Origin: a virus
IMG/VR virus record: IMGVR_UViG_3300045920_000127
Span: 1-27,004 of that record
DNA: 27,004 bases
Direction: 5' to 3' (one strand)
The notes under the pieces were generated by a model. The model made no database searches. It worked only from the letters and a program-made list of their open reading frames with translations, and had not been told where the DNA came from. Positions 3 to 17,722 of this stretch are shown piece after piece (position 1 is the stretch's first letter; every line of letters starts with the position of its first letter). The position numbers and the translations under genes are program-made.

Positions 3-998
3 TATCTCAAGCCAGGCGCCGGCGTTCGCTACGCAGGAGATCCGGCGCTCGCGGGTCGGGCGGCGATCGCCACGGAGCTGTGGTTCCGCCCCTCGACGAC
101 CTCGAAGCTCCCGGACCAGGCGCTCCCGCTGGGCGTCGAGGACATGCAGCTCGCCGGGATCGAGGAGGCCTGGGCCAAGCCGCTGATGATCTCGCGCCCG
201 CTCCGCCCACTCGAGCGCGCGGTCAATCTCCACGAGATCGACCGGCGCTGCAAGCTGACGGCGACCCGCATGCTCCAGACGGTGCGCCCGATCGGCCGCC
301 AGATGGCCGAGGCGATGGTGAAGGCCTGCCGGGAGTGCGGCGAGGACAACATCCAGTCCCTCATGGACTACCGGGTGCCGCTGCAGGGCAAGATGGCCTC
401 GGCGTGCAAGACCTACCTCGCGGACATGTTCGACTTCGGGCAGGCCCAGGTGCGCGAAGAGCTGGCCCGGCAGCACCGCCAAGCGCAGAACCCGGAGAGC
501 GATCTCCTGCTGGCGGAGCCGCCGCGGCCCATCGACAACGAGAAGCGCGCCCGGGACGTCATCAACCTGAAGGCCGACCTGCTCTCGCGGCGCTGGGCGG
601 AGCGCCTCAAGGAATCCGCCATGAACGTGATGCTGGCGGCCGCGCGCAGCGGGATGCCCCCGGGCGAGGCCGCGCAGCGCATCCAGGAGGCCGCGGACGA
701 GATCACCGATCGCTCGTCGCGCCAGCTCGTGATGAACACGCTCGGGGACGCCTTCGGCCTCGGGCGCCAGGTGGAGGCCCACCGGCAGCGCGACTACATC
801 GGCGAGGCCGAGTACTCCGCGATCCTCGACGAGAACACCTGTGACCCGTGCCGTCAGCTCGACGGACGCACGGGGCAGCTGGACGAGCCGGCGATGCAGG
901 TGCCGAACCCGAACTGCGCCGGCGAGCGCTACGGCTCGAGCTGTAGGTGCGTTCTCGTTTTTAGATATCGTGGACCATCCGGGGGCAGTGGGTCATGA
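3..998 (+). CDS. Portal / MuF-like head morphogenesis protein, C-terminal part (5' truncated by window)
   Basis: The frame is open from the window edge, so only the last 331 residues are visible and the start lies upstream. The middle is helical and charged. The C-terminus carries the Cys signature of phage Mu gpF-type minor head proteins: CDPCRQLDG, then a Pro/Asn/Cys stretch (PNPNCAG) and SCRCVLVF. In that family (established knowledge) the domain lies at the capsid vertex near the portal and helps head assembly. The first 60 residues (FRPSTTSKLPDQ, then RPLRPLERAVNLHEIDRR) do not look like a MuF start, so I infer a portal-MuF fusion or a long MuF protein. The last 11 codons (RYRGPSGGSGS) lie inside the antisense gene at 929-1765 and may be acquired sequence. 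Confidence is good for the MuF-type end and moderate for the portal fusion. Confidence 0.7.
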   Translation, partial: YLKPGAGVRYAGDPALAGRAAIATELWFRPSTTSKLPDQALPLGVEDMQLAGIEEAWAKPLMISRPLRPLERAVNLHEIDRRCKLTATRMLQTVRPIGRQMAEAMVKACRECGEDNIQSLMDYRVPLQGKMASACKTYLADMFDFGQAQVREELARQHRQAQNPESDLLLAEPPRPIDNEKRARDVINLKADLLSRRWAERLKESAMNVMLAAARSGMPPGEAAQRIQEAADEITDRSSRQLVMNTLGDAFGLGRQVEAHRQRDYIGEAEYSAILDENTCDPCRQLDGRTGQLDEPAMQVPNPNCAGERYGSSCRCVLVFRYRGPSGGSGS

Positions 999-3225: not shown

Positions 3226-4110
3226 GTGTGGACGATCCCGAACGACGACGGGAGCGCGCAGGCCCAGTACCAGTCCCAGCTCGACAGCGTGGACCTGGAG
3301 ATCCTGGTCCGCGCGCTGGGCGGGTCCGCGCGCGCCGGCGTGGTGACGGGGTGCGCGGTCAATGCCCAGGGCTCCCCGAACATGACCGTGCAGGTGACCG
3401 CGGGCCTCGTCCAGTTCGGGAATATCCTGAAGCCGATCACGGCCAAGACCGTCACCATCACCACCGCGCACGCGACCCTGCCCCGCTTCGATCTGATCGA
3501 GGTCAACGCGTCGGACGCCGGCTTCGCCCGGGAGGGGACGCCGGCAGTCTCGCCACGGTTCCCGTTCCCGGACACCGACCGGGTGGTGCTGGCCTCGGTG
3601 TTCGTGCCGGCCGCGATCTCGTCGATCGCCCAGGACAAGATCGTCGACAAGCGCGCCGGGGTGCCGGGGGTGGTCGTCAACCCGCGCCTCGCCGATCTCG
3701 CCAAGACGTCGGACAACACGATTGCGACCGATTCCGCGTTCTCGGCGCCCATGGCCGCGCAAGGGAAGTACCTGCTGATCCTCAAGATCTGGTACAACAC
3801 GGCAGCGAATCCGGACTTCAAGTGGCGTCTGATTGGCCCGGCCTCGCCGGCGGCGATCAATCTCAACGGCCAGTACGTGATCCCCAACGCCACCCAGCTG
3901 GTCGCCCCGTTTCGCATGACGGCCTACTCCACGTCGGACGAGACCATCCTGTCCGGCGCGACGGGCGAAGGCTGGCTGCTCGTCGAGGGGTACATCGAGA
4001 ACGGTCTCAACGCGGGATTCCTCGAGTTCCAGTGGGCGCAGAACACCTCGAACGCCACGGCCACCACGGTGCGCGGGGCGAGCTATCTGCAGCTGATTCC
4101 GGTGGGCTGA
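3226..4110 (+). CDS. Fibre/baseplate-like virion protein, paralogue A
   Basis: This 294-residue protein starts at a GTG with GAGG about 10 nt upstream. It is beta-rich, with no membrane segment. It shares an ordered set of motifs with the next gene: TIPND at the start, V-x-GC (TGCAV), RFDLIEVNASD, LASVFVPA, DKRAGVPGVV, LKIWYNTAANPDFKWRL, a FQWA strand and RGASYLQL at the end. The two genes are therefore tandem paralogues. The N-terminal layout (short leader, then a domain describing an applied value such as VTAGLVQFGNILKPI) is like the baseplate- or fibre-attachment segment of tail fibre proteins, but I cannot name a family with certainty. A receptor-contact or capsid-surface role is inferred. 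Confidence 0.6.
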   Translation: MWTIPNDDGSAQAQYQSQLDSVDLEILVRALGGSARAGVVTGCAVNAQGSPNMTVQVTAGLVQFGNILKPITAKTVTITTAHATLPRFDLIEVNASDAGFAREGTPAVSPRFPFPDTDRVVLASVFVPAAISSIAQDKIVDKRAGVPGVVVNPRLADLAKTSDNTIATDSAFSAPMAAQGKYLLILKIWYNTAANPDFKWRLIGPASPAAINLNGQYVIPNATQLVAPFRMTAYSTSDETILSGATGEGWLLVEGYIENGLNAGFLEFQWAQNTSNATATTVRGASYLQLIPVG

Positions 4111-4111
4111 G

Positions 4112-5023
4112 ATGTCGCTGACCATCCCGAACGACGAGACGACCTGGCTCAGCGAAGCCTTCTCCCTGCCCCAGGCAGTCGATTTCGCGATCCTGGCCGC
4201 GGCGTGCGGCCCCCGGCCCACGGGCGTGCTGTGGGGCTGCCGCGCCTACTGGGATGGGTCATCGACGATCCACGTGGACCCGGGCACCGTCCTGCTGGAC
4301 GGGGCCTTTGCCATGACGCCGACCACCCCCGTGGATTGCACCAGCGACGTGCTCAGCCGGATTGATCTCATCCAGGTCATTCCCGTCGCGGAAAGCGTCG
4401 CGTCGGTCCAGATCAAGAGCGGGGCCTACTCCGAGACGCCGCGCGCGCCCCTGCCGGACCCGGGGTGCGCCGGTGTGGCGGTGGTCTATGTGCCGGGCAA
4501 GGTGAATGACTACTTCCCGCCGCTCGGGCCCGAGTTCGTGCTCGACAAGCGCGTCTTTCTGCCCGGCACGGTCCGGCGATCCAAAAAGGTCGACGAGAGC
4601 CGGTCGACTCTGACGGCGACCGACGATGACTACCTGGCCCTGCCGATCCCGAAGGGTCACGTGACCCATGTCACGATCAAGGTCTGGTACAACACCAACG
4701 CGACCGCGGACTTCATCTGGTCCCTCGTGCTGCGGGACGGGAACGGGGTGTCATTCGCGCCGCCCACCGTGCTGGTGAACTACCAGTACACCCGGCCGAC
4801 CGTGGTGACCCTCGTGGCGCCGGTGTTTTCATCGTCGCTCCCGTCGGGCATAAGCGTGAATGCGTCGGGGACGGGCGACGCCTGGCTTCTGATCGACGCG
4901 GCGATCGGCGGGGACGCCACGCGCGACGGCGTCCTGAAGTTTCAGTGGGCCACGACCGGGGCCGGCGCGGCGATTCTGCGCGGGTCGAGCTACGCGATTG
5001 CGCGGGGCCAGGGCTGGGCCTGA
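4112..5023 (+). CDS. Fibre/baseplate-like virion protein, paralogue B
   Basis: This 303-residue protein begins at an ATG one base after the previous stop. It repeats the order of the upstream paralogue: LTIPNDE, VLWGCRAY, RIDLIQVIPV, VAVVYVPG, DKRVFLPGTV, IKVWYNTNATADFIWSL, LKFQWA and ILRGSSYAI. The WYNT-DF-W block (about residues 191-205) is the best conserved; the segments between blocks have diverged strongly. Its stop overlaps the ATG of the next gene in a TGATG. Paired, diverged copies are common among receptor-binding proteins, but the function here is inferred. Alternatively both could be capsid-surface proteins. Confidence 0.6.
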   Translation: MSLTIPNDETTWLSEAFSLPQAVDFAILAAACGPRPTGVLWGCRAYWDGSSTIHVDPGTVLLDGAFAMTPTTPVDCTSDVLSRIDLIQVIPVAESVASVQIKSGAYSETPRAPLPDPGCAGVAVVYVPGKVNDYFPPLGPEFVLDKRVFLPGTVRRSKKVDESRSTLTATDDDYLALPIPKGHVTHVTIKVWYNTNATADFIWSLVLRDGNGVSFAPPTVLVNYQYTRPTVVTLVAPVFSSSLPSGISVNASGTGDAWLLIDAAIGGDATRDGVLKFQWATTGAGAAILRGSSYAIARGQGWA

Positions 5024-7694: not shown

Positions 7695-9083
7695 GTGTCG
7701 ACCGGGGTCTTCCGGCGCTATCCGCGGCGGTACCCGCGGGCCTGGATTGCCGGCGCGCCGGCGGGCGGCGTGGTCTCGGCGTCGATCGACTACGGCCTGA
7801 CCGCGGCGGTGCCGGCAGCGACCACGGCGATCGCAGGGAAGTCGATCGCGTACGGGGTGGTCGTCAACGCCCCGGCTTCGGCCAGTGCCGTGCGCGCCGC
7901 GGCCCTGCCGCTCGGGGTGATCGAGGCGCTCGGCCTGGGCCGCGTCCTGTCGGCCGGCGCATCGCTCTCGCTGACGACCGTGGAGGGGCTCGTGCTCGCG
8001 GCGAGCCGCACCGCGGCCGCCGCGCTGGCGCTGGGCGTCACGGAAGCGCTGACGCCGACCGCGGGCCTCCTGGCGGTGGCGTCGCTGACCCTCGGCACCC
8101 AGACGGCCCTGATCCTGAACGGGCTTCCGCCGGGGGCGAGTCTGGACCTCGGGATCACGACCGGGCTGGCCCAGAGCGCGGGCCTCCTGGCGGTGGCCTC
8201 GATGCCGTTCGGGGTCACGGGCGCGATGGCCCCGGCCCCGCAGACCACACGCGAGGGGACCCTCGCCCTGTCGGTCGAGATCGGGTTGGTCCAGGTTGGC
8301 GCCGCGGTCCTCCAGGCGGCGCTCGGGCTCGGGCTGACGTCGCTCCAGAGCCAGCAGGCCGGCACGGTCGCCTCGGCCCTGATCACCTACCCCGTGCTGG
8401 AGCAGCTTGGCCTGGTGGCGGGCGGGAGCCTCATGGCAGCCCAGACGCTGGCCGCGGTGATGGGGTTCACCCCGGCCGCCGCGCCGAGCGGTGTGAGCGT
8501 CCTCGAGCTGGGTACGCAGCTCGCCCTGACCCTGCCGGCGCCGAACGCGATCATGGCGGCGATCCTGTCCATGGGGGTGCAGCATGGGATGGCGCTGGCG
8601 GGCGGCGCGATGCTGCAGGCGCTGCAGGCCCTGGGGATCACGACGGCGTTCCTGCCCGAGCCGGCGGGCGGGACCCAGCAGGCGCCGCTGACGCTGTCGC
8701 TCACGACGGACCTGGCGCTCGCGGCCTCCCGCGTGTCGGCGGCGCTCCTCAGCCTGACGTCGATCCCGGCGCTGTCTCCGGATGCTCAGCACCAGCTCGG
8801 GCGCGCGCTGGCCCTGACGATCCAGCAGGAGCTGGCCCTGCACACGCAGACGGCGCAGTCGGCGCTGATCCAGTACGGGCTGACGGCCAGCCAGGTGCAG
8901 CTCGGCGGGATGGTCCACCAGGCGGTGATGAGCCTGGCGGCGTCGCTCGTGCTGGCCCAGAACGGGGCGCTGTTCTCGGCGATCGGCCACCGCATCCGCT
9001 TCACGGGCGAGCAGATGCGGGCGGCCACCATGACGGGCGAGTCGATGGGCGGCGCGTCGCCGAAAGGGGAACGATTGGTATGA
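7695..9083 (+). CDS. Solenoid-like protein built of about twenty ~20-residue repeats
   Basis: This 462-residue protein (GTG start) is almost entirely a degenerate repeat of about 19-21 residues from about residue 27 to 430. The unit reads L-G-[VI]-T-x-[AG]-L, followed by 8-10 variable residues rich in Ala, Gly, Pro and Ser, then A-x-x-L. Examples are LGVTEALTPTAGLLAVASLT, LGITTGLAQSAGLLAVASMP, LGITTAFLPEPAGG and LSLTTDLALAASRVSAALLS. A 20-nt stretch is identical at 8061-8080 and 8178-8197, showing duplication in place. A short C-terminal segment (FTGEQMRAATMTGESMGGAS) differs. The N-terminus is basic (FRRYPRRYPRAW). Regular period and small hydrophobic residues fit a beta-solenoid or stacked fibre shaft. 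No catalytic motif is seen. A long fibre or spike is inferred, and a membrane association cannot be excluded. Confidence 0.6.
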   Translation: MSTGVFRRYPRRYPRAWIAGAPAGGVVSASIDYGLTAAVPAATTAIAGKSIAYGVVVNAPASASAVRAAALPLGVIEALGLGRVLSAGASLSLTTVEGLVLAASRTAAAALALGVTEALTPTAGLLAVASLTLGTQTALILNGLPPGASLDLGITTGLAQSAGLLAVASMPFGVTGAMAPAPQTTREGTLALSVEIGLVQVGAAVLQAALGLGLTSLQSQQAGTVASALITYPVLEQLGLVAGGSLMAAQTLAAVMGFTPAAAPSGVSVLELGTQLALTLPAPNAIMAAILSMGVQHGMALAGGAMLQALQALGITTAFLPEPAGGTQQAPLTLSLTTDLALAASRVSAALLSLTSIPALSPDAQHQLGRALALTIQQELALHTQTAQSALIQYGLTASQVQLGGMVHQAVMSLAASLVLAQNGALFSAIGHRIRFTGEQMRAATMTGESMGGASPKGERLV

Positions 9084-9457
9084 GGCCCAACTCCTACTGG
9101 CACAGTACCGAGCGGACGACGGGGGCGTACACGGTGAAGGCCCTGAAGGACGAGGACGGGATCGTCCTGACGAGCCTCGATACCCTGACCCTCTCGGTGT
9201 GGGATCTCAAATCGGGCGCGATCATCAACGGGCGCGACCGGCAGGACGTGCTCAACCAGAACGACGTGACGTTCAATGGGGACGGCTCTCTGCTCTGGCG
9301 CGTCCAGGCCGCCGACCGGCCGATCCTGGACGACACGCAGGACTGGGAGGACCACGTCGCCATGTTCGAGTTCACCTATGCGGGCGGGGGGCGAACCGGC
9401 CACTGGGTGCTCCAGGACCGGATCGACAATCTCCAGAAGGTGCCGGCGACGCCGTGA
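9080..9457 (+). CDS. Hypothetical phage protein, 125 aa
   Basis: The start overlaps the stop of the repeat protein (ATGA) and the stop overlaps the GTG of the polyvalent gene (GTGA), so all three are translationally coupled. The product is a soluble beta domain: VKALKDEDGIVLTSLDTLTL, then WDLKSGAIINGRD, VTFNGDGSLLWRVQAADRPI and WEDHVAMFEFTYAGGG. This alternation resembles the small Ig-like domains seen in phage BppU-type N-terminal baseplate modules, but the match is only suggestive. A virion accessory role is inferred from its neighbours. Confidence 0.5.
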   Translation: MRPNSYWHSTERTTGAYTVKALKDEDGIVLTSLDTLTLSVWDLKSGAIINGRDRQDVLNQNDVTFNGDGSLLWRVQAADRPILDDTQDWEDHVAMFEFTYAGGGRTGHWVLQDRIDNLQKVPATP

Positions 9458-12400
9458 GCGCGAAGTGGGACGTGGTTCTGGCCGAGCGCCTGCTGGCGGA
9501 CAAAGAGCGCTCGGGCATCGAGGCGTTCATGCGCGGCACCGGGCGAAAGCGCGGCGGCGGCGAACAGGGTGGCGGCGGTGGTGACGAGGACGACGGAGAC
9601 TGCAAGTGGGTCACCATCCGCGGTAACCCCGTCTGCCTGACGCCGGGTCATGGTGGCCACCGGAAGGGCGAGTCCATCGCGAAGTCCCAGGCGGCCTACT
9701 CCGATGTACCCACGGGGAAGGGGGGCCGCGTGCGCGCGGTGTCCCGGATCTGGAACCCGACCGCCGAGAACACCTGGCGGGGCTCCGGTGCCGTGACACC
9801 GAAGTGGCCCAAGGGCGTCGAGCCCGGAAGAGTGCTCGACCGCTTCCGCTTCAACACGACGTCGATGTCCGCTTCCGGCCACATCGAGGAGGACGAGAAC
9901 CAACGCAAGCGGGCCGTCATCCACGAGGTGGTCAACGACACGCCGAGCCTCCTGACGTCGCAGGAGCGGCGAAACCAGCCGACCGGATCCTACCCGTCGC
10001 GCGCCGGCGAATCCCGCACCCTGCTCCGCGAGCTGATGGTCAGCCTGCGCGACAAGGGGGTGCGGGAGGCCATCCTGCCCCCCAGGGTGGTCGGGGCGGG
10101 CGCCGAGCCGTGGATGGCGTACCAGTCCACGCGCGGGGACAAGCCGTACCCGCGGAGCTGGCCCGGAATGAGCGTGCAGTTCGGCCGCGCCGAGCCCAGG
10201 CCAGGAGTCGTGGCGGGTCCAGGCCTCGGCGATGCGACGGCGCGCCCGGTTCCGCCCCATCGCATCCTCGATCGCCTCAAGGCCAAGCCGGTCACGGACG
10301 CGGGCGGCAAGATCACGGGCTACCGGGTGAACGTCGAGGAGATGCAGTACCTCTGCGAGATGGCATGGCCCGAGGATCGCGTCCTGGCGGATCCGGAGCG
10401 GCGGCGCGTGGTGGCCGCCTTCGACTTCGACGGCACGCTGGCCCAGTACCAGGGGTGGGGCGACGGGACACCGGGCGATCCGATCCCGGGCATGCGCGAG
10501 GTCATCGACCAGCTGCAGGCCGCCGGCGCCGAGGTCCTGATCTTCTCGACGCGGGATGCCGACCAGATCCGGGCCTGGCTCACGAAGCACGAGTGGCCGG
10601 CCCTGGAGGTGACGAACAAGAAGCACCCGCGGATCACGGTGTACATCGACGACCGGGCCCTCGAGTACGAGCCCGAGACGCTCGACACCCTGGCCGTCCG
10701 GGTCATGAACTTCCGCCCGTGGTGGCAGACGGTCGACCACCAGCTGGCGGACGAGGACGACGACTGCACCTGGATCACGATCGACGGCCGCCACATCTGC
10801 ATCCAGCCCAAGCACGCCTGGCATGACCGGACGCCGCGCGTGAAAGTCAGCCGCGCGCCGCACTGGCGACGTGAGCCGATCGAGGGCAAGCGCATCAGCT
10901 GGTCCCAGCAGGGGAAGATGGGGGAGCGCCTGGCGATCGCGCATCTCAAGCGCCTTGGGTTCCGGGACGCGCGGCCGGCCACGAAGATCTCGAACTTTCC
11001 CGTCGACCTGGTGCACGGGGACACCCTGGTCGAGGTCAAGACGGGGCTCGCCAGCAACACGCAGAAGAGCCAGCACTGGCGGACCACGATCGGCGAGCCC
11101 GGCAAGGCGGAGCGGCGCTGGCTGCGCGAGCTGGACCGGGACAAGAAGCTCCGGTGGAACGCCGAGAAGATGCGCCAGATCCATCTCCGCAAGCAGGCGG
11201 TCGTGAAGGCGCTCTCGCGCGAGCTGGGCCGTCCGATCAAGACGGAGACCGTCGCGCTCATCCTCGACCCGGGCCGGCGCAAGGCCGACGTGTACCGCTT
11301 CGAGGGCTTCCCCAGGCGCGTGGGATGGCGCTCGCCCACGGCCCAGCAGGGCTACGTGACCACCTACGACTACAAGCTGAGCGAGGACCTGTGGGACGTA
11401 CCGGCCCCGCCGCTGCGGCCGGACGTCTACGAACTCGCCGAGCCCGAGGCGGAGCCCGCTGATCCGGAGACGGTCGATGACGAGGCCGACGACGACGCGG
11501 ACTGGCCGTCCTGGGTGCCGCTGGGCGTGCGCGCCGAGGTCGAGGGTGCGCTGTCGCGCTGGAGCCGCGACGTCGAGAAGGCGATCGCGAAGGAGGACAG
11601 CCGGTCGCTCGCCGAGGAGGACGACGACGAGTGCATCTGGCGCATGATCGGGGGCCACCCGGTCTGCATCCGCGCGAGCCACGCGGAGCACGGCCGCGGC
11701 GAGCGACCGGACCGTGGGGCCCCCCGGGAGACCCGGCGGTTCCGCTCCGAGACCACCCCACGCGCCCCGAAGCCCCCGGCGAAGGGCATCAACCCGGAGC
11801 CCTTGACCACCCGGGTGGCGAGCCCTCGGCTCTTCAGCCCGGTTGCCCGGGCGGTGCCGCTGGGCCATCGCTACGGGGAAAAGCCGTCCGGCGACCCGGA
11901 GGGCCACCTGAACTCGGTGTTCCGCGTGACGCTGGAGAACGGCAACGACGCGGTGTGGAAACCGGCCGCCGGCGAGCACAGCGCGTTCTCCGGCGCCGAT
12001 CCCGCCAAGCTGAAAGGATTCACGCAGGACCTCCGGGCGTTCGGCCAGCCAGGCACCTACTGGAAGCGCGAGGTGGCGGCCTCCCGGATCGCCCGGGCGG
12101 TGGGCATGGAGGACCTGGTGCCGTCCACCGACCCGGCCTCGTTCGGCACCGAGCACGGGGCGCTTCAGACGTTCCAGCGCGGGGTGAGCCCCATGACCCT
12201 CGGGCGCGATCTCTACGGCAAGCGGCTCGAGGACGTCGAGCGCGCGGTGCTGTACGACGCGGTCATCGGGAACTTCGACCGCCACTTCGGCAACTGGCTG
12301 GTGGCCCCCACCGGCAAGCTGATCCTGATCGACCATGGCCACGCCTTCCCGCGCACCCAGGTCGTGAAGCACCCGGGGGACCTCCGGGAAGGTCTCCGGG

Positions 12401-12597
12401 CAGGCGGCGAAATGAACCGCGAGATCCCGGAGGCCGTGAAGGAGCCCTGGAAGAAGATCGAGAGCCAGCTCCCGACGCTCCTGCGGGGTCTTTCGTCGGC
12501 CACCATCAAGACGACGCGGCAGCGGCTCGGCCTCGCCCTCAAGCCAGGCCAGACGTGGATCGGCCTGCGGCGCGACCTGGAGCGGCCGTTCAAGTAG
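9454..12597 (+). CDS. Polyvalent protein: HAD phosphatase, PD-(D/E)XK nuclease and HipA/PI3K-like kinase modules with three zinc-knuckle linkers
   Basis: This 1047-residue protein starts at the GTG overlapping the previous stop. Three knuckles share exact spacing C-x10-C-x4-H-x2-H: C50/C61/H66/H69, C438/C449/H454/H457 and C727/C738/H743/H746. Each follows an acidic run (for example LADEDDD, LAEEDDD). After knuckle 1 comes an unknown region (70-315), then a HAD module: DFDGTL (D324, D326), FSTRD (366), NKK (389-390), YIDD (D399, D400). After knuckle 2 comes a nuclease-like module: GERLAIAHLKRLGF (E491), NFPVDLV (D518), VEVKTG (E527, K529), as in Holliday resolvase-like PD-(D/E)XK enzymes. After knuckle 3 comes a kinase-like module: VWKP (K836), E873, GNFDRHFGNWL (D942, N947), LILIDHG (D960), as in HipA/PI3K/Fam20-type kinases. 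All key residues are present. By family precedent it may be packaged and injected, but targets are unknown. The nuclease and kinase calls rest on motif order. Confidence 0.8.
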   Translation: MSAKWDVVLAERLLADKERSGIEAFMRGTGRKRGGGEQGGGGGDEDDGDCKWVTIRGNPVCLTPGHGGHRKGESIAKSQAAYSDVPTGKGGRVRAVSRIWNPTAENTWRGSGAVTPKWPKGVEPGRVLDRFRFNTTSMSASGHIEEDENQRKRAVIHEVVNDTPSLLTSQERRNQPTGSYPSRAGESRTLLRELMVSLRDKGVREAILPPRVVGAGAEPWMAYQSTRGDKPYPRSWPGMSVQFGRAEPRPGVVAGPGLGDATARPVPPHRILDRLKAKPVTDAGGKITGYRVNVEEMQYLCEMAWPEDRVLADPERRRVVAAFDFDGTLAQYQGWGDGTPGDPIPGMREVIDQLQAAGAEVLIFSTRDADQIRAWLTKHEWPALEVTNKKHPRITVYIDDRALEYEPETLDTLAVRVMNFRPWWQTVDHQLADEDDDCTWITIDGRHICIQPKHAWHDRTPRVKVSRAPHWRREPIEGKRISWSQQGKMGERLAIAHLKRLGFRDARPATKISNFPVDLVHGDTLVEVKTGLASNTQKSQHWRTTIGEPGKAERRWLRELDRDKKLRWNAEKMRQIHLRKQAVVKALSRELGRPIKTETVALILDPGRRKADVYRFEGFPRRVGWRSPTAQQGYVTTYDYKLSEDLWDVPAPPLRPDVYELAEPEAEPADPETVDDEADDDADWPSWVPLGVRAEVEGALSRWSRDVEKAIAKEDSRSLAEEDDDECIWRMIGGHPVCIRASHAEHGRGERPDRGAPRETRRFRSETTPRAPKPPAKGINPEPLTTRVASPRLFSPVARAVPLGHRYGEKPSGDPEGHLNSVFRVTLENGNDAVWKPAAGEHSAFSGADPAKLKGFTQDLRAFGQPGTYWKREVAASRIARAVGMEDLVPSTDPASFGTEHGALQTFQRGVSPMTLGRDLYGKRLEDVERAVLYDAVIGNFDRHFGNWLVAPTGKLILIDHGHAFPRTQVVKHPGDLREGLRAGGEMNREIPEAVKEPWKKIESQLPTLLRGLSSATIKTTRQRLGLALKPGQTWIGLRRDLERPFK

Positions 12598-13757: not shown

Positions 13758-14039
13758 GTGAGCGTCGGAGGTCTGGATGCCGCAGAGCTGGCCCGCGAGC
13801 TGGCGCCGCTCAACCCGAGGATCTCGGTGGGCATTCGCCAGGGGGGCGCGGAGGGCAAGGGCAAGCGCATGCCATATGACAAGCTGAGCGGCCTGCCGGA
13901 CCACGTGCGCAAGCGCGGCAAGACGGCCAGCAAGCGCTGGCGGGCGATCTTCAACAGCGTGTTCGCGAAGGACGGCGAGGCGAAGGCCTTCGCGGCGGCC
14001 AACGCCTCGCTGGATGACCCGCATTCCGGGCACACCTGA
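13758..14039 (+). CDS. ChaB-like small protein
   Basis: Residues 38-85 match the ChaB pattern: MPYDKLSGLPDHVRKRG, then KRWRAIFNSVFAKDGEAKAF and AAANASL. ChaB was named as a putative cation-transport regulator, and ChaB-like domains are frequent beside phage head genes, where the role is unknown. I use the GTG at 13758, giving 93 residues, because the first 37 residues (DAAELARELAPLNPRISVGI) look like coding sequence. The ATG at 13869 would give the ChaB domain alone (56 residues) and cannot be excluded. The gene sits 6 nt before the protease gene. Confidence 0.6.
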   Translation: MSVGGLDAAELARELAPLNPRISVGIRQGGAEGKGKRMPYDKLSGLPDHVRKRGKTASKRWRAIFNSVFAKDGEAKAFAAANASLDDPHSGHT

Positions 14040-14045
14040 GACCGC

Positions 14046-15809
14046 ATGCTGAGCGACCGGATCGGTCGCGTGATCGAGGGGTACGAGCTCTCAACGTCGC
14101 TCTTCGGGGAGCCGAAGTCGAAGCTCCTGCTCTTCCCGCGCGGCCAGTTCGATCATCCGAAGTACGGCAAGATGACCTTCGACGACGAGTTCTTCGACGA
14201 GGTCGTCGCCAACTACAAGAACAAGGTGCTCGGCCGGACCGAGCCCTACATCGACTTCGACCACCAGAAGGGCCGCGCGGCCGCGTGGATCCGCGAGCTG
14301 TCGGTCGATCCCGATGGCCTGTGGGCCTCGCGCGTCGACTGGACGCCCGCCGGCGAGACGGCGGTGCGCTCGGGCGAGTACCGCTACGTGTCGCCCTGGT
14401 GGGGCTCCGTGTCCGACGCGGCGAACGGCGAGACCTACGATCGCGTGCTGCGCGGGGCCGGGCTCACGAACGTCCCCTATCTGAAGCAGCTTCCGCCGGT
14501 GGCCCAGGACGCGGTCCTTGAGGAGAGCGAGCCGCTGGTCGAGCTGATGCTCAGCGAGTTCCTGCTCGCGGGCAACCCGTACCGGGCGGCCGATGGGACG
14601 TTCACCGACGCGGCCCACGACGTCGGCGGTGGCGGTGTCGGTGGTGGTGGCGGCAAGGGCGGCGGCGCCGGGCCCGCTGCGGTCAAGGTCTCGCGCAGCG
14701 CGGCCCGGGGCGCCCAGATCGGCTGGGACCTCGGGCGCCTCTTCGGCTCCACGAAGCTCTCCGGGGCAGCGGCGACCGGCATCGGGATCGCGGCCGGTCT
14801 CGGGTCGCTGGCCGCGGCGAATCCGGATGCGGCCATGAAAGTGGCGGGCCTGGCGAAGGCCCTCGGCTCGCGTGTCATGCGTCACGGGCCGGCGATCGCT
14901 GGAACCGTCCTGGCCGGCGCGGGCATGCTCGGGCTGTCGCGCGTCGGCCGGCCCCCCGCGCCAGGGCGACAGTCACCGGCCGAGCTTGAAGTCGGCGCGG
15001 CCATGGCGCGGCAGGGCTTGCTCCCGCCCGCGGCTCCCGGTGGCGCTCCCGCGAAGCCAGCGCTGGGAGCTCTGGCGACCGGGAAAATCCAGAACGCCAA
15101 GGCCGTGCTGCGCGAGGTGCTCTCGCGCTATCGCTCGATGCCCCTCAAGCCGGAGGCGCCCGCCGCTCCAGCGGCGCCCGCCGAACCGCCCTACACGTCC
15201 TGGGTCGAGCGGCAGATCGCGTCGGGCGAGAAGGGCTCGCGAGGCACGCGGCGGCTGCGCAAGGGCGGCGGCGTCGGCTACCAGGGCGGCCGCAACGTGC
15301 GCCTCGACGACGTGCTCGCCACGTTCCGGGAGTTCCGCCTGGCGGATGAGGAGGACGACGCCCTGGAGGCCATCGACGTCGATGCCATCCCGGACGATCT
15401 CGCCGAGGCGATCCTGAAGATGCTGCAGGCCTACGTGGAGCGCGAAGAGAAGGCGCTCTCCGAGCGGCTGCATCGCACGCTGACCGGCCAGGCGCTCGCC
15501 GATGGCGACCCGGAGGACGAGGACGAGGAAGAGGACGAGGACGAGGACGAGGACGAGGATCTCGAGTCCCTGCCGAACCGGGTGCGCGCAGCCTGGAACG
15601 CGATGTACCCGATGGGCATCTCCATGAACGGCGCGCGCCATCCCTACCTCACCAAGATCTTCGAGGAGCACGTGATCGCGGAGGACGGCGAGCGGCCGAA
15701 CACGTGGTGGCAGATTCCGTGGCGAGAGGTCGGCCCACAGATCGTCTTCGACATGGCGGCCCGCATCCCGGTCCACCAGGTGTGGCTGCCTGCGGGAGCG
15801 ACCGCATGA
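14046..15809 (+). CDS. Mu gpI-like prohead protease fused to a Gly-rich, hydrophobic and acidic extension
   Basis: Residues 20-165 match the Mu gpI-type capsid maturation protease: FDHPKYGKMTFDDEFFDEVV, YIDFDHQKG (H73), AAAWIRELSVDPDGLWA, VDWTPAGETAV and EYRYVSPWW (S116). H73 and S116 are the likely catalytic residues (inference). In the family this enzyme digests the scaffold inside the prohead. The remaining 420 residues are unusual: a NPYRAADGTFTDAAHD tag (177-192), a Gly-rich run, two hydrophobic stretches around 240-300 (GIGIAAGLGSLAAAN; AGTVLAGAGMLGL), an LADEEDD helix unit near 433, an Asp/Glu tract at 488-509, and a C-terminal region starting LESLPNRVRAAWNAMY. The tag and helix unit recur in the next gene. 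The ATG start has a weak ribosome binding site. Normal gpI proteins are much simpler, ending in a scaffold domain, which here is a separate gene. Confidence 0.75.
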   Translation: MLSDRIGRVIEGYELSTSLFGEPKSKLLLFPRGQFDHPKYGKMTFDDEFFDEVVANYKNKVLGRTEPYIDFDHQKGRAAAWIRELSVDPDGLWASRVDWTPAGETAVRSGEYRYVSPWWGSVSDAANGETYDRVLRGAGLTNVPYLKQLPPVAQDAVLEESEPLVELMLSEFLLAGNPYRAADGTFTDAAHDVGGGGVGGGGGKGGGAGPAAVKVSRSAARGAQIGWDLGRLFGSTKLSGAAATGIGIAAGLGSLAAANPDAAMKVAGLAKALGSRVMRHGPAIAGTVLAGAGMLGLSRVGRPPAPGRQSPAELEVGAAMARQGLLPPAAPGGAPAKPALGALATGKIQNAKAVLREVLSRYRSMPLKPEAPAAPAAPAEPPYTSWVERQIASGEKGSRGTRRLRKGGGVGYQGGRNVRLDDVLATFREFRLADEEDDALEAIDVDAIPDDLAEAILKMLQAYVEREEKALSERLHRTLTGQALADGDPEDEDEEEDEDEDEDEDLESLPNRVRAAWNAMYPMGISMNGARHPYLTKIFEEHVIAEDGERPNTWWQIPWREVGPQIVFDMAARIPVHQVWLPAGATA

Positions 15810-17722
15810 GCCTCCGGACGACCCTCGCCGAGCACACCCTGGCCAACCCCTACCGGGACGAGGGCGGTCGGTTCACGACAGAGTCACAAGACACGGGTGG
15901 ACGCACTGGGGGCGCGGCGAAAGGCGAGGGGCGCCTCGCCAAGACCGCCAAGCGCGTCGCGAAGGCGGCGGGGGCAGCACTGGATCTCCCGGAGGCCGAA
16001 ACCCGGACGATCAGCGCCGATAGAGCGGCGGTGGGGAAGGCGATCAAGAGAGGCATCGGGCACGGTGTGGTGACCGGCCTGGTGCTCGGTCGGCGCGCCG
16101 GGCTCGTAACTGGAGCTGCGGAGGCCGTGACGCAGCTCTCCAAAGCGCCGAAGCTCCGGCGCACCGTCGACCGCGCCCTCCGCACAGTCAGTCGGGGCGC
16201 CATCAACCTGGGGCCCAAGGGTGTCGGCCAGCTGATCAATGGCCTGGTCCTCACGGGAAGCCTCGCGTACTCGGCCTACCAGATCTACAAGGGGCTGCAG
16301 TCGCTGCGGCCCCCCGGGCCGAGTCGTCAGCTGGCCGAACCCGATGTGGCCGATCGGGAGTCGTTCGAGGCTGTGCCGGAGGTGATCTGGAAGGCCCTCC
16401 TGTCGGCCCTCAAGGACTACACCAAGCATGGCGATGGCGATCGCCTGCAGCGGGACCTGGCCGCCATCGCGCCGGCCCAGTCCGAGCTATCGGAGACCCT
16501 GCAGGAGTACGCGCTGGCGAACCCGTACCGAGATCGAGAGGGCAAGTTCACCACCGAGGCCGGCGACACGGGCGGCGGCGGGCGCGGTGCAAAGACCGAG
16601 AGGCCGCGCGCGCGCAAGCGCGGCCTGGGCGGTGAATCGGTATCCGAAAGCCTGAAGGTCGGTGCCGCCACTGGCGCGACGATGGCCGTCGGCAGCGCGT
16701 TCGCCATGCCGCCGTTGCATGCGGTTGGGGCCGGCGGCCTCTCGGGGGTCGGGGCGGCGGCCTGGAATATCGGGAAGAGCCCGAAAGGCCGCGCCGCCGT
16801 CGCCAAGACCGTGCGCACGCTGAGCAACGGTGCCATCAAGATCGGCCCCAAGGCCGTGGGCCGCATCCTGAAAGGCGTTAGCGTGGCGGCCACTCTCGGG
16901 GGCAGCGCCGTGGCCATGCACGCGCTCTACAAGGCGATGGGTGGCGGAGGGGATCTCCTCGGAACCTTCCGCGACGAGCTGGCCAAGCCGGGAGGGCCCC
17001 GGGGCGGCCCGGCCCCGTTCTCCCCCTACGGTGGGAACGTGGTGAAAGAGCCCACCTATACGGGAGGAGGTCGTCCCCCCGATCCACCCGATCCGACCAT
17101 TCGCCGACCGGGCGACACGGCGGCGGTCGAGTACCGGGGCAAGACGTTCTATGGGAAGACCGAGGACGACGCCATGAACAAGCTCAGGCGAGCCCAGCTC
17201 CCCGAGCAGGGCGCATTCGTCGGAGACACGTCGACCATCTTCCGCGGAACCTCCGGGAAGCCACTCGCCCCCGGCCTCGGCATCGTCGGCTACCCGAAGA
17301 CCAGGGAGGAAGCCGCGGCGCGCACGCAGGCATTCCGGAGCACGGTGTATGGAGGCCAGAAGTTCACATCCAAGTCGAAGCCGATCCCGACGCTCGAGCC
17401 GCCCAAGGCGCGGTTGGGTGGCCTCCTGGGTCCGCCGCGCGTGGACACGCTCGAAGACCTGCTGAAGCGCCCCGGCTTCAAGCTGGCCGAGCCGGACGCG
17501 CCGGACGATCTGCCCGAACCGCTCCTGAAGGCCATGGTGTCGGCCCTCCAGGACTACGCGAAGCACGAGGACGCCGACCGTCTCCGGCGGGATCTCGCGG
17601 CGATCCAGGCGCGCGTGGACGCGGCCGCGGACCAGACGGAACCCGCACTGTCAGAACCTTCCATCGGCGAGGTCCTGGGCCAGCAGGCCCGGAGAAGCCT
17701 GCTCGCCGCGATCGCCCACTGA
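15806..17722 (+). CDS. Internally duplicated protein with two NPYRD-FTT cassettes, 638 aa
   Basis: The start ATG overlaps the protease stop (ATGA). The protein has two copies of one layout. Unit 1 (1-230): LAEHTLANPYRDEGGRFTTE (7-26), basic linker, hydrophobic Ala/Gly region with RTVSRGAINLGPKGVGQLI, a YQIYKG end, then LAEPD and a helix WKALLSALKDYTKHGDGDRL. Unit 2 (231-638): YALANPYRDREGKFTTE (N239), RTLSNGAIKIGPKAVGRIL, AMHALYKAMGG, a Pro/Gly-rich insert of about 150 residues, LAEPD, then LKAMVSALQDYAKHEDADRL (575 on). A third, more diverged copy is in the upstream protease. I recognise no family. Virion-internal proteins processed by the neighbouring protease are a reasonable guess. Hydrophobic segments could also cross a host membrane during injection. 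Confidence 0.65.
   Translation: MSLRTTLAEHTLANPYRDEGGRFTTESQDTGGRTGGAAKGEGRLAKTAKRVAKAAGAALDLPEAETRTISADRAAVGKAIKRGIGHGVVTGLVLGRRAGLVTGAAEAVTQLSKAPKLRRTVDRALRTVSRGAINLGPKGVGQLINGLVLTGSLAYSAYQIYKGLQSLRPPGPSRQLAEPDVADRESFEAVPEVIWKALLSALKDYTKHGDGDRLQRDLAAIAPAQSELSETLQEYALANPYRDREGKFTTEAGDTGGGGRGAKTERPRARKRGLGGESVSESLKVGAATGATMAVGSAFAMPPLHAVGAGGLSGVGAAAWNIGKSPKGRAAVAKTVRTLSNGAIKIGPKAVGRILKGVSVAATLGGSAVAMHALYKAMGGGGDLLGTFRDELAKPGGPRGGPAPFSPYGGNVVKEPTYTGGGRPPDPPDPTIRRPGDTAAVEYRGKTFYGKTEDDAMNKLRRAQLPEQGAFVGDTSTIFRGTSGKPLAPGLGIVGYPKTREEAAARTQAFRSTVYGGQKFTSKSKPIPTLEPPKARLGGLLGPPRVDTLEDLLKRPGFKLAEPDAPDDLPEPLLKAMVSALQDYAKHEDADRLRRDLAAIQARVDAAADQTEPALSEPSIGEVLGQQARRSLLAAIAH

Follow-up and report, generated by a model that had tools for sequence, protein, structure and literature searches.

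The 27,004-base virus record IMGVR_UViG_3300045920_000127, the whole of which is called the window here, contains on its plus strand a gene for a 1,047-residue protein, P0001, in which several enzyme modules are strung together with three copies of a CCHH knuckle of the spacing C-x10-C-x4-H-x2-H. The knuckle is probably a short metal-binding tag, and because it is also present once in the portal–MuF fusion protein of the same phage, P0002, it is a phage-wide tag. Other phages carry similar enzyme strings with quite different tags, which suggests that the tags form a code by which enzymes packed into virus heads are sorted or cut. The best explanation, to which slightly less than an even chance is given, is that P0001 is a polyvalent head-cargo precursor, in which tags mark modules for packaging and short LA[DE] motifs are cut by the Mu-I-like head protease. 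The features of P0001 are as follows, the knuckles having been located by pattern scan and the LA[DE] motifs by motif scan.

9454–12597, plus strand: P0001, 1,047 residues, in the order knuckle 1, GNAT-like region (tentative), HAD, knuckle 2, PD-(D/E)XK, knuckle 3, PI3/PI4K-like kinase (open reading frame (ORF) and profiles)
9478–9501, plus strand: LAE (residue 9) and LAD (residue 14) at the N-terminus, candidate cleavage motifs
9601–9660, plus strand: knuckle 1, residues 50–69, CKWVTIRGNPVCLTPGHGGH
9820–10353, plus strand: module 1, tentatively GNAT-like, residues ~123–300, homologous to the post-knuckle segment of P0002; low-confidence model
10384–10392, plus strand: LAD at residue 311, between module 1 and HAD
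10405–10728, plus strand: HAD-type phosphatase, residues 318–425, with FDFDGT, FSTR and IDD motifs
10744–10752, plus strand: LAD at residue 431, between HAD and knuckle 2
10765–10824, plus strand: knuckle 2, residues 438–457, CTWITIDGRHICIQPKHAWH
10891–11388, plus strand: PD-(D/E)XK nuclease-like module, residues ~480–645, with GE, PVD, VEVK and HWRTTIGEPGK
11434–11442, plus strand: LAE at residue 661, after the PD-(D/E)XK module; begins an acidic-helical segment
11608–11616, plus strand: LAE at residue 719, directly before knuckle 3
11632–11691, plus strand: knuckle 3, residues 727–746, CIWRMIGGHPVCIRASHAEH
11851–12573, plus strand: PI3/PI4K-like kinase, residues ~800–1040

The reading frame from 9454 to 12597 is open over all 1,047 codons. 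A six-frame scan of the window finds exactly three copies of C-x10-C-x4-H-x2-H, all in the frame of P0001 and at the residues given by an original prediction made from the DNA alone. As that prediction also held, C, W, I, G, C, H and H are invariant across the knuckles, with an internal W-x2-I-x-G, and an acidic run precedes each of them. The spacing is absent from all 20,000 of 20,000 shuffles of P0001, and the knuckles contain six of the seven cysteines of the protein. The flanks that follow the knuckles in the protein are basic (HRKGES, HDRTPRVKV and HGRGERPDR). Module 1 stands behind knuckle 1, the nuclease behind knuckle 2 and the kinase behind knuckle 3; HAD lacks one. The claim that a knuckle precedes every module is therefore right for the nuclease and the kinase and inexact for HAD, because knuckle 1 precedes an extra region of about 180 residues rather than HAD directly.

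Knuckle 2 is modelled as a beta hairpin and a turn with a predicted local distance difference test score (pLDDT) of about 80; a joint MAFFT alignment of the other knuckles with knuckle 2 plus the nuclease misplaced those knuckles, and the modelling did not draw on it. Since the modelled hairpin and turn is accompanied by conserved ligands, zinc binding by the knuckle is plausible. The knuckle resembles classical CCHH zinc fingers and retroviral-type knuckles in its two Cys and two His, its short spacings and its modelled hairpin and turn, and differs from them in the C-x10-C-x4-H-x2-H spacing, the internal W-x2-I-x-G, the lack of a Pfam zinc-finger match and its repetition between enzyme modules.

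The window corresponds to 30.0–57.0 kb of the 108,431-base contig IMGVR_UViG_3300045978_000284, being identical at all sampled points within the fetched loci. A fourth knuckle lies at 28944–29030 of this contig, about 1 kb upstream of the window, inside the 1,257-residue P0002, which consists of a Mu-type portal (PF06074, 8e-33), the knuckle, a homologue of module 1, a 2H phosphoesterase (PF13563, 5.8e-7) and MuF (PF04233, 2.1e-8) in this order. The original prediction had overlooked both this fourth knuckle and module 1. Contrary to what had been thought, the linker is thus not peculiar to P0001. The third and fourth knuckles are 58% identical, and 7 of 20 positions are invariant among the four diverged copies, all four ligands included (chance about 0.007, estimated by hand), so that the CCHH ligands are kept in register in four copies and two proteins. 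That the repeats form a functional linker, as originally proposed, is counted as supported.

The exact knuckle pattern occurs in IMG/VR in no contig other than those of the window's own virus; Cys-only and Cys-free forms are found in multi-domain ORFs of other phages. The Cys-only form C-x-W-x-T-I-x-G-x2-[VI]-C is present in a few other phage ORFs: it adjoins a 2H domain in locus L015 (the same as L018), a second ORF of which has a variant tag; it opens a MuF protein in L017; and in L014 it ends with C-x4-H-x-H. A match of the Cys-only pattern in L019 was judged to be due to chance, and a knuckle match in Paenibacillus L010 is a pattern artefact. L098 has two Cys-free tags, WVTINGHHVFI and WITLDGDHIFI, before modules read by the analyst as zeta-toxin-like and PI3K-like. 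A tblastn search of phages with the short tag, which is insensitive, gave at most one match (E=5), Nvie-Pro1-13, bearing a related CKWVAIDGRPICI tag. The archaeal provirus protein L013 (Nitrososphaera phage Pro-Nvie1, gene 13), from a head-gene region, has CKWVAIDGRPICIKHHH, which resembles the first half of the knuckle.

Elsewhere, the same nuclease and kinase modules stand behind unrelated tags (GSGNFGHAGRPG, HPRDxDGKF/NPNHDxHGRF, PAGSPxGGQF and GPRGGxYY), with up to six per protein. The tag GSGNYGHAGRPG is found three times in L028. L029 has nine copies of GSG[HF].GH.GRPG over four ORFs within 13.9 kb, with ART-like and nuclease modules among them; L042 has six copies of HPRxxDGKF; L073 has four of NPNHDxHGRF, and the tag also stands in a second ORF there; and L025 has GPRGGxYY in two ORFs. 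In L049, a PAGSPEGGQF tag stands in a single fusion of portal, 2H, tag and kinase. Kinase and HAD are joined in one protein in L114; this kinase ORF also holds a P-loop kinase and a tag variant that contains Cys, CPRDEHGRC. A second tag class, LANPYRDxxG[RK]FTTE, is present in the window phage's own ORF at 15803–17722, and the protease carries a variant of it. In shuffles, the GRF class has about 4 chance matches against 34 observed, and the other four of the five tag patterns have almost none.

Nucleic acid is a common ligand of CCHH knuckles, and the foremost rival, itself unlikely, is that the knuckle is a nucleic-acid-binding element that holds each module on packaged or injected DNA with no proteolysis. 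The basic flanks that follow the knuckles agree with this, and tethering to DNA would benefit the nuclease module. The strongly acidic run immediately before each knuckle argues against it, and since the tags of other phages lack Cys and His (L098) or differ in sequence, DNA binding would not be a function that the tags share. The occurrence of the same modules behind different tags in different phages would also be expected if the tags were recombination seams or flexible spacers for the swapping of enzyme modules, the peptide itself doing little; domain shuffling is known for polyvalent and MuF proteins (PMC5512222). This is improbable, as the diverged knuckle copies retain the four ligands plus W, I and G, the tags are short, structured and constant in spacing, and the tag next to the nuclease is modelled at a confidence of about 80.

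Profiles or relatives back the three enzyme modules of the original prediction, along with their catalytic residues. The HAD-type phosphatase matches phrog_1238 (E 4.7e-12), has FDFDGT at residue 323, IFSTRD at 363 and ITVYIDD at 394, and is 44% identical to gp83 of Gordonia phage Nithya; Pfam HAD models match P0001 only below the cut-off. The PD-(D/E)XK module gives no profile match as a single sequence, nothing significant by tblastn against phages and plasmids (the best match, a plasmid SDR gene at E 0.02, is due to chance), and no match other than itself when it or the whole of P0001 is the query in IMG/VR. The assignment is supported by relatives: the pattern HWR[AT]TIG[EQ]PG matches 12 other viral contigs, GE, D, E and K are invariant in an alignment of 11 sequences with the D...E-x-K motif present, and three members of this alignment match UPF0102 weakly. 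The AlphaFold model of the nuclease has a pLDDT of 85, and its top solved structures are mostly of PD-(D/E)XK type (Hje, UPF0102, 3fov, a restriction enzyme and RecE), with weak E-values of 0.24–1.

The C-terminal module had been called a HipA/PI3K-like kinase, of which the PI3/PI4K-like part stands and the HipA part does not. The region matches PF00454 at E 8e-9, above the gathering cut-off. PF00454 is also matched by all 25 aligned sequences, drawn from at least 80 stretches in IMG/VR with the pattern GN-x-DRH-x-GNW. K836, E873, D942, N947 and D960 stand at positions invariant in these 25 sequences, and the Lys, the Glu and the second Asp are invariant although they lie outside the search pattern. 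The kinase profile matches structures of type II PI4-kinase (PI4K2) at E 3e-10. HipA was rejected as the kinase family, since P0001 matches PF00454 only and 2 of the 25 sequences match HipA_2 weakly. Module 1 is 29% identical to the segment of P0002 (E 1e-13 including the knuckle), and a model from these two sequences has a GNAT-like order of strands and helices, with weak matches to GNATs. Module 1 is tentatively a GNAT-like acetyltransferase region, because the model is of low confidence and the weak matches also include Tdp2.

By gene order, the P0001 gene belongs to the structural operon of a tailed phage of Mu-portal type: the portal–MuF gene lies upstream, and the genes for a Mu-I-like protease, a scaffold-like ORF and the major capsid protein lie downstream. 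The neighbouring genes discussed here are as follows.

3–998, plus strand: C-terminal part of the P0002 fusion, the first ORF of the window
14046–15809, plus strand: Mu-I-like head maturation protease (PF10123, E 1.2e-17), the candidate processing enzyme, with an NPYRAADGTF tag and LA[DE] sites in its C-terminal extension
15803–17722, plus strand: head-region ORF of two tandem modules, each headed by LANPYRD..G[RK]FTTE, followed by LAEPD and an amphipathic helix

The protease is the single Mu-I-like protease gene match in the phage. The LAEPD acidic-helix element of the ORF at 15803–17722 recurs in the C-terminus of the protease (E 2e-4); the two tandem paralogous units of this ORF contain Gly/Ala-rich hydrophobic stretches. 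The adjacent ORFs at 3226–4110 and 4112–5023, in the tail/baseplate region, look like tandem paralogues with similar N- and C-terminal patterns. The ORF at 7695–9083 encodes 462 residues rich in Ala, Leu and Gly, is strongly periodic internally and has no family match, and the frame ending at 14039 has a ChaB-like C-terminal stretch at about 13800–14039 (Pfam ChaB E 0.28, below the cut-off).

The position of the P0001 gene between tail-side genes and the protease gene, together with the absence of a MuF or portal domain in P0001, would fit a protein that is made after infection as a cytoplasmic multi-enzyme scaffold rather than as virion cargo, with the knuckles serving as rigid spacers or protein-contact sites. 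A low probability is given to this scheme, because P0001 and the portal fusion have the tag and the first region in common, and related module strings are fused to the portal (L049) or to MuF (L068, L082 and L090) in other phages. The portal–2H–kinase fusion of L049 (frame starting at 1796) and the MuF–kinase fusion of L068 are both apparently interrupted by intein-like segments.

The LA[DE] motif occurs 22 times in five head proteins against 5.1 expected by shuffling, and 3 times in the other ORFs of the window against 5.8 expected; related tripeptides show no comparable enrichment. In P0002, the sites include residue 794 at the GNAT/2H border and residue 1096 before MuF. All 10 of the LA[DE] motifs in P0001 and P0002 lie between domains, against 1.0 expected from linker composition, and none lies inside a domain, against 1.3–1.5 expected. 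LA[DE] is assumed to be the site of the phage's protease. In T4, the prohead-protease motif is L/I-X-E. The protease of SPN3US has portal, capsid and ejected proteins as substrates and cleaves them after A-X-E (PMC10052503). The window phage resembles these systems in having a short motif in its head proteins, as SPN3US has A-X-E in portal, capsid, protease and ejected proteins; it differs in that the candidate motif is LA[DE] and separates enzyme modules. That the head protease or a host protease recognises the knuckle as such, a reading that fits its place at module borders and its presence in two proteins, is very improbable, since the protease signal to which the sequence points is the separate LA[DE] motif, which also stands at knuckle-free borders (P0001 residue 311; P0002 residues 794 and 1096) and in the scaffold and protease, and a folded zinc hairpin would be a poor protease site.

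In the head-cargo explanation, the knuckle would bind zinc and serve as a docking or sorting tag, gathering the modules during assembly, at the inner portal or in the head. Cutting at LA[DE] between the domains would then fall to the Mu-I-like prohead protease that the phage encodes, and the separate enzymes would be ejected with the DNA to act early in the host; release of the modules, as originally envisaged, is counted as a reasonable model. The nuclease may act on host or competitor DNA, and the kinase on host proteins; phosphate ends or signalling nucleotides may be the targets of HAD and 2H. In other phages, unrelated short sequences would take the same tag role. Several points weigh against this explanation. 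The packaging of P0001 is inferred from context only: P0001 itself lacks MuF and any other domain that would anchor it to the capsid, and its gene sits after the tail-side genes, between them and the protease gene, not beside the portal. No zinc-finger profile in Pfam matches the knuckle, and the GNAT label comes from a model of pLDDT 52. LA[DE] also exceeds shuffles in ORFs of the rest of the genome (37 against 20), though less; the motif had been spotted before it was put to the linker test, for which the domain borders were set by hand. The tag survey was drawn from loci chosen by module patterns and is not a random sample.

MuF polymorphic toxins, on which Jamet et al. reportedly wrote in 2017, are similar in that a phage head protein carries enzyme domains, and P0002 has MuF; P0001 differs in having no MuF and several enzymes in series. 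The kinase is like the atypical kinases of the PI4K type II/FAM20C-like group (PF00454) in its complete catalytic K, E, D..N and D and in its profile matches to PI4K2 structures, and differs in its phage head-gene context and repeated-tag architecture. As originally predicted, P0001 is a polyvalent protein as Iyer et al. 2017 (PMC5512222) use the term, with several functionally unrelated domains in one polypeptide and a virion-gene context. Those authors describe 2H fused to MuF or portal, list kinase and GNAT domains, and propose processing by zincin peptidases. In contrast, no zincin peptidase was found here, the kinase of P0001 belongs to the PI3/PI4K-like clade, neither phosphatase nor PI3 turned up when that text was searched, and repeated linker tags were not found described. 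A literature search on the tag sequence and on packaging tags found nothing relevant, and a limited search of the open-access literature found no description of repeated interchangeable tags. The polyvalent architecture and the 2H–MuF and 2H–portal fusions are thus already known, and the repeated interchangeable tags are, within this limited search, apparently undescribed.

A wider generalization, which is doubtful as it stands, is that tailed phages use interchangeable, phage-specific tags of at least five sequence classes, including the CCHH knuckle, as a code for packaging and processing, in which an enzyme behind a tag becomes capsid cargo and is then freed by the head protease, so that enzymes swap and the tag follows the phage. 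Injected phage proteins are hard to recognise because their enzymes are ordinary and their carriers differ. If the generalization is true, it would provide a sequence rule for finding the proteins that phages inject with their DNA, and early host takeover and counter-defence would be the roles to suspect for enzymes that follow such tags. Routing of an enzyme into the phage head by a short tag would then explain how non-structural enzymes are chosen for packaging.

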